Assembly: GCA_002899765.1 (NCBI GenBank)
Contig: PPDH01000025.1
Coordinates: 151,984 to 196,903 of the forward strand
Source of the DNA: Sulfurimonas sp.
Lineage (GTDB): Bacteria > Campylobacterota > Campylobacteria > Campylobacterales > Sulfurimonadaceae
DNA length: 44,920 nucleotides
Direction of reading: 5' to 3'
The notes below the pieces were generated by a model, which made no database searches, had not been told where the DNA came from, and was given only the letters and a program-made list of their open reading frames with translations. Shown in pieces: positions 40,394 through 41,412 of this stretch. Numbering within the stretch: position 1 is the stretch's first letter; each line of letters opens with the position of its first letter. Both the position numbers and the translations under genes were made by a program.

Positions 40394-41053
40394 TTAATCA
40401 ACGCTTCCAAATCTACTGATTACTCTTCCTATCACCTCTATTTCAGAGGGCTCCAGTGTTTGAGTGGAGTAAACTTGATTATCTGATATTATATCTATTT
40501 TCCCGTCAATTCTTTTTTGTACTCTTTTTATAAAAAGCCCTGCTTCCGTTCTTATGGTAAAAACACCGCCTCGTTGAAGGTCTGTTTTGCTTCTGTTTAT
40601 AAAGACTATATCGTTATAACTAAAAGTAGGCTCCATGGAGTCTCCTGATACATTTATAGCTTCTATATGTTTTAACTCTCTCTCTCCTCCAAGCATCAGT
40701 GCAAACTCATGTGGAATCTCGATTCCCTGAACCTCCTCTTTGTCCGTGTCTGCTCCACCGCCTGCGGATGCATTTACATTTCCGAAGTACTTGACCATAA
40801 AAAATCTATTTGTTGCTTCAATAAGACTCTCAGGTGATTGACCGTAAAGAAGCCAGTTTATAGATATGGATTTTGTCGCACAAAAGTCTAAAAGTTCACC
40901 GAAAGGAATCTTGTTTCTTTTTTTCATTGTCGCAAAATTCATCTGAGAAACCCCCAAAATATCTGCAACATCTTTGTCGTATATCTTTCTGCCGCCAAAC
41001 TCTGTAGAGACAATGCTTTTAATCTCTTCTACTATTTCAAGAAAATTTTTCAT
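40394..41053 (-). CDS. S24-family (LexA/CI-like) self-cleaving repressor
   Basis: 219 residues from ATG 41053 (SD AAAGGAA). An N-terminal HTH at about 25-50 (DKDVADILGVSQMNFATMKKR) of the Bacteriophage CI type is followed by the S24 domain. The cleavage site is Ala97-Gly98 in NASAGGG, the nucleophile Ser139 in SGDSMEPTF, and the general base Lys176 in GLFIKRV. Such repressors respond to RecA-ssDNA during the SOS response. It sits alone with no phage genes, so it is a cellular regulator or prophage remnant. TTTTGCAAAA-type sites upstream suggest autoregulation. Confidence 0.9.
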   Translation of the reverse strand: MKNFLEIVEEIKSIVSTEFGGRKIYDKDVADILGVSQMNFATMKKRNKIPFGELLDFCATKSISINWLLYGQSPESLIEATNRFFMVKYFGNVNASAGGGADTDKEEVQGIEIPHEFALMLGGERELKHIEAINVSGDSMEPTFSYNDIVFINRSKTDLQRGGVFTIRTEAGLFIKRVQKRIDGKIDIISDNQVYSTQTLEPSEIEVIGRVISRFGSVD

Positions 41054-41063
41054 GTCGTTTCCT

Positions 41064-41133
41064 TTTTGCAAAATATTAAAATATTATATTTGATTTTTGC
41101 AATTTAGTCAAAATTTATATGACAAAATGCAAT
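41064..41133. promoter_or_regulatory. Operator-like region between the S24 repressor and a 27-codon ORF
   Basis: The palindrome TTTTGCAAAA (41064-41073) is followed by TTGCAA (41097-41102) and AATGCAAT (41127-41133 region), about 30 bp apart. GTCA and TGAC (41107-41110, 41120-41123) lie between. The arrangement fits cooperative repressor sites on a divergent promoter. Confidence 0.5.
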
Positions 41134-41191
41134 ATTTTTTAGGTAAAAATGAAATTATGTGTAAGATTTGGAAAAATCAAAAGGATTTTAT

Positions 41192-41275
41192 ATGATAATC
41201 GTAGTGAAAAATGTACAAAGCATGCTAGATAAATTTGAAGATATATTAGAGAGATGGGCTCAAAAAATTTTTTAG
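41192..41275 (+). CDS. 27-residue amphipathic peptide ORF divergent from the repressor
   Basis: ATG 41192 has a strong AAAAGGA 6 bp upstream and encodes a peptide starting MIIVVKNVQSMLDK and ending WAQKIF. It is helical and amphipathic, with hydrophobic and charged faces and one Trp. This is like small membrane-active peptides or type I toxins, but that is inference from composition. Its placement under the repressor's operator-like sites is the main support. Confidence 0.45.
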   Translation: MIIVVKNVQSMLDKFEDILERWAQKIF

Positions 41276-41279
41276 AGCC
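41257..41279. terminator. Bidirectional terminator-like palindrome
   Basis: GGCTC and GAGCC enclose AAAAAATTTTTT in a near-perfect 23-bp palindrome with a single A-A mismatch pair. It overlaps the 3' ends of the 27-codon ORF and the convergent 46-codon gene. Confidence 0.6.
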
Positions 41280-41412
41280 TCCCTTCTTTCTCTTTTACTC
41301 TCTTTTCGTCAGCTTCTCTTTGAGCTGATTTGTTTTTATGATAGCCGCCAAAGACAAAAATCATAAATAGCACGAAAAGAAGAGCCATAACTATATCTAT
41401 AAATTCTTTCAT
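41272..41412 (-). CDS. 46-residue single-span membrane protein
   Basis: MKEFIDIVMALLFVLFMIFVFGG forms one membrane helix, then a basic, polar tail (YHKNKSAQREADEKRVKEKE). Its ATG overlaps the trmL stop by 4 bp, which supports real translation in the leuD-to-trmL series. Function unknown. Confidence 0.6.
   Translation of the reverse strand: MKEFIDIVMALLFVLFMIFVFGGYHKNKSAQREADEKRVKEKEGRL

Follow-up and report, generated by a model that had tools for sequence, protein, structure and literature searches.

The S24-family protein described here is very probably the SOS repressor of the Sulfurimonas-like lineage, doing LexA's job, with a 27-residue peptide encoded opposite its gene among the SOS targets. 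Both genes lie in a 44,920-nucleotide stretch of a Sulfurimonas sp. genome (GCA_002899765.1, contig PPDH01000025.1, positions 151,984 to 196,903; referred to as the window), and their features are collected in Table 1. A sequence-only reading of the locus had proposed an orphan repressor, acting through three TTGCA sites, that would release a membrane-active toxin after DNA damage. It is borne out in part: the repressor, the shared operator region, the conserved peptide and the link to damage stand, whilst the orphan status, the three-site operator and the membrane toxin are where it falters.

Table 1. Features of the repressor/peptide locus (window positions) and operator places in the same genome
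Feature	Position	Strand	Basis or remark
S24 (LexA/CI-like) self-cleaving repressor gene	40394-41053	-	219 aa; ATG at 41053, end 40394; CI-type helical DNA-binding domain
First TTGCAAAA box	41066-41073	+	Not kept in relatives
Repressor promoter TTGACT-17-TATAAT	41083-41111	-	Promoter scan; conserved AGTCAAA read in relatives' alignment
Second TTGCAA box	41095-41102		Inside -35/-10 spacer of repressor promoter; seen in near relatives
Operator ATGACAAAATGCAATATT	41119-41136	+	27.3 bits; common to repressor and peptide promoters
Third box TGCAA	41128-41132		TTGCA on other strand; within conserved operator
Likely extended -10 of peptide promoter, TGTGTAAGAT	41158-41167	+	Read by eye; relatives TGTGTANTAT
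Shine-Dalgarno AAGGA of peptide	41181-41185	+	6 nt before ATG
Conserved micropeptide ORF, MIIVVKNVQSMLDKFEDILERWAQKIF	41192-41275	+	27 aa; translation; conservation
GGCTCAAAAAATTTTTTAGAGCC near-palindrome over peptide stop codon	41256-41278		Read by eye; no call by terminator scan
46-aa membrane-like ORF	41272-41412	-	Converges on peptide
Operator place: S24/peptide pair
Operator place: recA
Operator place: IMS-family Y-polymerase			Adjoining HTH protein
Operator place: dinD			NF008573, 361 bits (cut-off 242)
Operator place: radA	G000:C27:122292-122310		L288; near-perfect palindrome TGGCAAATTGCCATAT, about 60 bp upstream
Operator place: polysaccharide deacetylase gene			Followed by dprA-like ORF
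Operator place: TPR protein
Operator place: small ORF			After DpnII gene
Operator place: RhuM-like gene
Operator place: adjoining glyQ			L121; without clear target

A chromosomal S24 repressor in genomes without canonical LexA

A Pfam search matches the protein to both Peptidase_S24 (62.3 bits) and Phage_CI_repr (25.9 bits), each above its cut-off, and Ala97-Gly98, Ser139 and Lys176 are invariant in 31 of 31 aligned relatives, in agreement with the earlier description of a LexA/CI-like repressor with intact self-cleavage residues. The winged-helix domain of LexA (PF01726) is not found in the protein, Phage_CI_repr being matched instead, and the N-terminus of the AlphaFold2 model (pLDDT 81.6, pTM 0.55) is all helix; the score against TIGR00498 (LexA) is 21.8 bits, for a cut-off of 110.95. 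By Foldseek, the model is closest to a lambda-186 hybrid repressor, to the phage 186 repressor and to LexA, with E-values as low as 1.1e-10; a search of solved structures by sequence gave no match at E 0.01.

Among 135 genomes of the same genus, 126 have a repressor match at E 1e-3 or better (counted by eye), this being strong (E < 1e-20) in 116 and weak in 10, with none in the other nine; weak or missing matches extend to assemblies rated 99% complete (G056, G122). Across the phylum, a match at E 1e-20 is found in 197 of 397 genomes and 50 of 68 genera, the repressor being mostly absent or weakly matched in two of the families, labelled f2 and f3. The purU gene lies near the S24 gene in 68 of 80 loci. 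In view of this wide distribution and conserved synteny we have dropped the description as an orphan or as a prophage repressor; the S24 gene is a core gene of the chromosome, outside prophage. Canonical LexA (PF01726) passes the cut-off in none of the 135 same-genus genomes, with one weak sub-threshold match, the control genomes being positive.

Two side observations belong here. Genome G122 (99% complete) has no S24 match and a RecA match that is weak and RadA-like, representing either joint loss or an assembly gap. Many genomes also encode short proteins that match only residues 1-70 (HTH) of the repressor, at some 40-47% identity (e.g. G011:C1:1740448-1740687); absent from the genome under study, these are possibly antagonists or Cro-like partners.

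One operator between two promoters

The S24 gene and the peptide ORF are 138 bp apart, and the tiny ORF with its Shine-Dalgarno sequence sits opposite the repressor gene at the coordinates first given for it. From 110 loci we kept the 89 with non-identical sequence and at least 150 bases upstream. In 70 of these the sequence between the two genes matches a strictly defined site, and an 18-bp PWM was built from them; the remaining 19, several with variant sites, were left out, the figure of 70 reflecting the pattern chosen. The operator consensus is one 16-18 bp site, TGNCA-N3-TGNMATAT, and the sole site in the window above 10 bits is that at 41119-41136; the idea of an operator region common to repressor and peptide is upheld. 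All three of the TTGCA boxes previously noticed do exist, but only the third falls inside the conserved 18 bp; because this site is the conserved one and the other boxes count for less, we have dropped an operator made of the three boxes, and describe a single site in place of three TTTTGCAAAA sites. Lying immediately before the -35 region of each promoter, it is well placed for a bound repressor to block RNA polymerase.

Over the stop codon of the peptide, the GGCTCAAAAAATTTTTTAGAGCC near-palindrome is possibly a two-way terminator, shared with the converging 46-aa ORF. The letters of a similar ORF are seen in several relatives, and the 46-aa product matches no protein family over cut-off.

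The operator elsewhere: a predicted regulon

Upstream of recA, the PWM finds an operator of at least 14 bits in 30 of 30 sampled loci from relatives and in none of 600 shuffles. The Y-family polymerase is preceded by a site of at least 8 bits in 22 of 30 loci; of the eight loci below this score, two offer a short upstream stretch of about 70-105 bases. At the same 8 bits, the control region upstream of purU is negative in all 68 loci. Random 200-mers from the loci of the PWM test were positive in 11 of 240 cases, presumably as windows over the true operator itself.

As a pattern, TGNCAWWWTGNMATAT gives 948 strand hits in the 135 genomes, compared with 38 for the reversed control; the genome under study has 10 such places, with 13 strand hits as against 1 in the control. 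Operator places in this genome are included in Table 1, where radA and the dprA-like ORF are what we take these genes to be from their sequences. Three pattern sites at gene starts or within genes (L112, L116, L119) were set aside, and another (L115) lies near a comM-like gene without a clear target. The link to DNA damage, which the sequence-only reading expected, is stronger than that reading knew, because the same operator precedes recA, the Y-polymerase, dinD and radA.

A conserved, amphipathic micropeptide

A reading frame broken in relatives had been named as grounds for rejecting the peptide; instead, by HMM, the ORF is kept in 82 of 89 loci, with E-values down to 1e-17. Its length is 27 aa in 78 of these, 25 in three (one of which runs off its contig) and 28 in one, with a consensus of about MSIIIKNAESLFERFENSIEIWAEKIF; all 82 have a Shine-Dalgarno sequence, the start chooser having preferred starts with one. 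Seven loci gave no ORF call: one lies at a contig edge (L018), one drops out of frame close to the end of its contig (L068) and one has unusable upstream sequence (L077), whilst L072, L089, L101 and L105 hold no peptide ORF at the locus by HMM, L072 apparently (by eye) containing an insert. Median dN/dS is 0.41 (pairs with pS < 0.6), and diversity by codon position is 0.295, 0.213 and 0.454, the third being the most variable; by these sequence measures the peptide is real, conserved and under purifying selection.

The mean helical moment of the peptides is 0.515, 85.9% of them lying more than 2 sd above shuffles, and their charge runs from -2 to +3 with a mode of 0; the peptide is predicted to fold as an amphipathic, near-neutral helix. 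Composition and moment reveal no transmembrane segment, and Pfam and NCBIfam return no family. The proposed membrane-active toxin is therefore matched in its amphipathic character, but a TisB-like membrane spanner is unlikely, because mean hydrophobicity is low (0.06, against 0.47 for TisB on the same scale, with no hydrophobic span) and charge is near neutral.

A second peptide ORF of about 30 aa, ending LSxKxL, immediately follows uppP in 14 of 31 loci (L342, L346, L350, L353-L362 and, in the genome under study, L365 at G000:C15:16600-18100). It resembles the SOS peptide at E 0.002-0.05 (A2 profile) and is possibly its paralog; in the seven copies fetched, no SOS operator was found nearby.

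Divergent partners in other families of the phylum

We read by eye the ORFs divergent from the repressor in 60 ortholog loci outside the genus, with families labelled f1-f11. A short peptide with a genus-like ending occupies this position in 34 of them (11/12 in f1, 12/14 in f7, 8/8 in f10 and single loci of f2, f3 and f9), and a Y-polymerase in 10 (4/4 in f5, 5/6 in f8 and 1/1 in f11; 10/11 together). Eight of 12 f4 loci (L216, L240, L243-L246, L265, L268) have a different small ORF, consensus-like NSGCKTAAELALFLR, and one f4 genome (L264; 1/60) an ORF that we take, from its sequence, to be uracil-DNA-glycosylase-like; a membrane-like ORF of 83-85 aa is found in two of the 60 loci and no divergent ORF in five. 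With an HMM built from the genus only, peptides are matched in 9/12 f1 loci at E 1e-3, 4/8 f10 loci at 0.05 and 2/14 f7 loci, against 0/60 on the control strand. Kinship is thus clear in f1. In f10 the E-values are no better than 0.003-3, and the f7 peptides are mostly without a match; kinship in these two families accordingly rests on position and the C-terminal motif.

At 8 bits, the PWM detects the operator in the repressor promoters of f1 (12/12), f7 (13/14), f10 (8/8), f4 (7/12), f2 (1/1) and f9 (1/1), in 0/1 of f3, and before the repressor in 0/11 loci of f5, f8 and f11. Among 20 recA promoters from other families, read by eye, operator-like sites occur in f1, f4, f7 and f9 and, with a divergent box, in f2; no such site was seen in f5 and f8.

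Discussion

We envisage that, in the undamaged cell, repressor dimers would occupy the TGNCA-N3-TGNMATAT operators observed beside -35 regions, and so block the repressor's own gene, the peptide, recA, the Y-family polymerase, dinD, radA and a few others. Upon damage, RecA filaments would stimulate cleavage at the conserved Ala97-Gly98 bond by Ser139 and Lys176, switching the regulon on; induction of the peptide along with the regulon is inferred from these sequence features. Against the S24 protein as SOS repressor count the eight of 30 Y-polymerase loci below 8 bits, the misfit of the operator in f5, f8 and f11, and the genomes with a weak S24 match or none.

The peptide may in turn be a damage checkpoint effector that docks on a divisome or envelope protein. 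We propose this role because SOS division inhibitors are encoded beside lexA, and on that analogy we tentatively favour it as the likeliest for the peptide; counting against it, the known division inhibitors SosA and YneA have a transmembrane segment and the peptide does not. Taken further, a CI-like S24 repressor, once captured, could govern an unrecognised SOS response without LexA in much of the Campylobacterota, its hallmark target being a new family of amphipathic checkpoint micropeptides of 23-34 residues directed at division or envelope synthesis, with the possible paralog beside uppP (undecaprenyl phosphatase) pointing to the lipid II cycle; this larger proposal is possible, though doubtful, and the lipid II cycle enters it because the possible paralog lies right after uppP.

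Might the peptide instead act upon the repressor, as a DdrR-like co-repressor or modulator? The layout is that of Acinetobacter, in which a small ORF and the gene of an S24 repressor other than LexA point away from each other and share an operator, DdrR is a genus-specific co-repressor that binds UmuDAb (PMC11332147, available part), and an amphipathic near-neutral helix would suit a protein partner. However, a strong operator still precedes recA in each of three tested genomes with no peptide at this locus (G006, 23.9 bits; G096, 21.0; G099, 23.9), and in f4 and f5/f8 the repressor is present without a genus-type peptide, which makes a co-repressor unlikely. The SOS-induced self-toxin of the sequence-only reading, acting on the membrane like TisB to bring dormancy after damage, draws on the small size, SOS-type operator, amphipathic helix and strong Shine-Dalgarno of the peptide. 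We consider it quite improbable given the low hydrophobicity and near-neutral charge described above, and because 82 of 89 loci retain the ORF under purifying selection, no gene for an antitoxin being seen.

The remaining alternative touches the repressor: a leftover of a prophage that controls only itself and the peptide, the box before recA being a shared AT-rich promoter feature. Its CI-type N-terminal domain would fit such an origin, as would the full-length relatives (36-39% identity), probably prophage repressors, of which both G044 and G067 carry several copies. Yet the strong matches in 116 of 135 genomes, the nearby purU in 68 of 80 loci, an information-rich operator absent from purU upstreams (0/68) and from shuffles, and its recurrence at the dinD, radA and Y-polymerase promoters together leave this explanation very little room.

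In the available part of one study, Epsilonproteobacteria are reported to be without a LexA ortholog and ciprofloxacin to evoke no typical SOS response in Campylobacter jejuni (PMC2390758), and our searches of open-licence papers turned up no account of an SOS regulator from Sulfurimonas or any other member of the Campylobacterota. If free-living Campylobacterota do have a CI-like S24 SOS system, the pathogens may have lost one rather than never had it, and a phage-type repressor, with a new operator, would have captured an SOS network in a further case. For the 27-residue micropeptide family, DNA damage would then offer a clear setting for the search for a function.

Comparison with known systems

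Canonical LexA (TIGR00498, PF01726) shares with the Sulfurimonas repressor its S24 domain, its Ala-Gly, Ser and Lys residues and target genes, but has a winged-helix DNA-binding domain that the latter lacks. TisB is a hydrophobic, membrane-spanning peptide, a feature in which the Sulfurimonas peptide differs (0.06 versus 0.47). DdrR of Acinetobacter is 84 aa in length. It diverges from umuDAb and strengthens DNA binding by UmuDAb, an arrangement that resembles ours in pairing an S24 regulator with a divergently encoded small protein, in its shared operator and in the lack of LexA; it differs in that UmuDAb derives from UmuD, DdrR is another small protein and the targets are error-prone polymerases (PMC11332147, available part). 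FddR of Francisella is likewise a phage-type repressor serving a DNA-damage response in a LexA-less lineage, as we infer for Sulfurimonas, but governs a small, genus-restricted network; Campylobacter and epsilon are not mentioned in the part of that study available (PMC13148647). In several Gram-positive bacteria the neighbours of lexA encode inhibitors of division that belong to the SOS response; the genes for YneA, SosA and DivS are small, SOS-controlled and divergent from the SOS repressor, a layout that the Sulfurimonas peptide shares with its proposed repressor and common operator, whereas their products have a transmembrane segment (PMC6851548, available part).

By function, LexA is the chromosomal repressor of the canonical SOS network (PMC8565304, available part); the Sulfurimonas operator precedes recA (30/30) and the translesion polymerase (22/30) and is found at the repressor's own promoter (27.3 bits). 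The same definition takes in control of cell-cycle arrest, for which the peptide is a candidate. Closest in kind is the non-canonical LexA of Sanchez-Osuna et al. (2021), a family restricted to Bacteroidetes, in whose study the text gives no match for 'epsilon' or 'campylobacter' (PMC8565304). The two differ in their motifs, GGA-N5-TCC or CTAA-N5-TTAG as against TGNCA-N3-TGNMATAT, and in the divergent micropeptide of Sulfurimonas, none being described for Bacteroidetes LexA in the available part of that work. Alike, both are S24 proteins with a CI-like, all-helical DNA-binding domain, and both are tied, on the Sulfurimonas side by its operators, to autoregulation and to recA and Y-polymerases in a LexA-less phylum (PMC8565304, available part).
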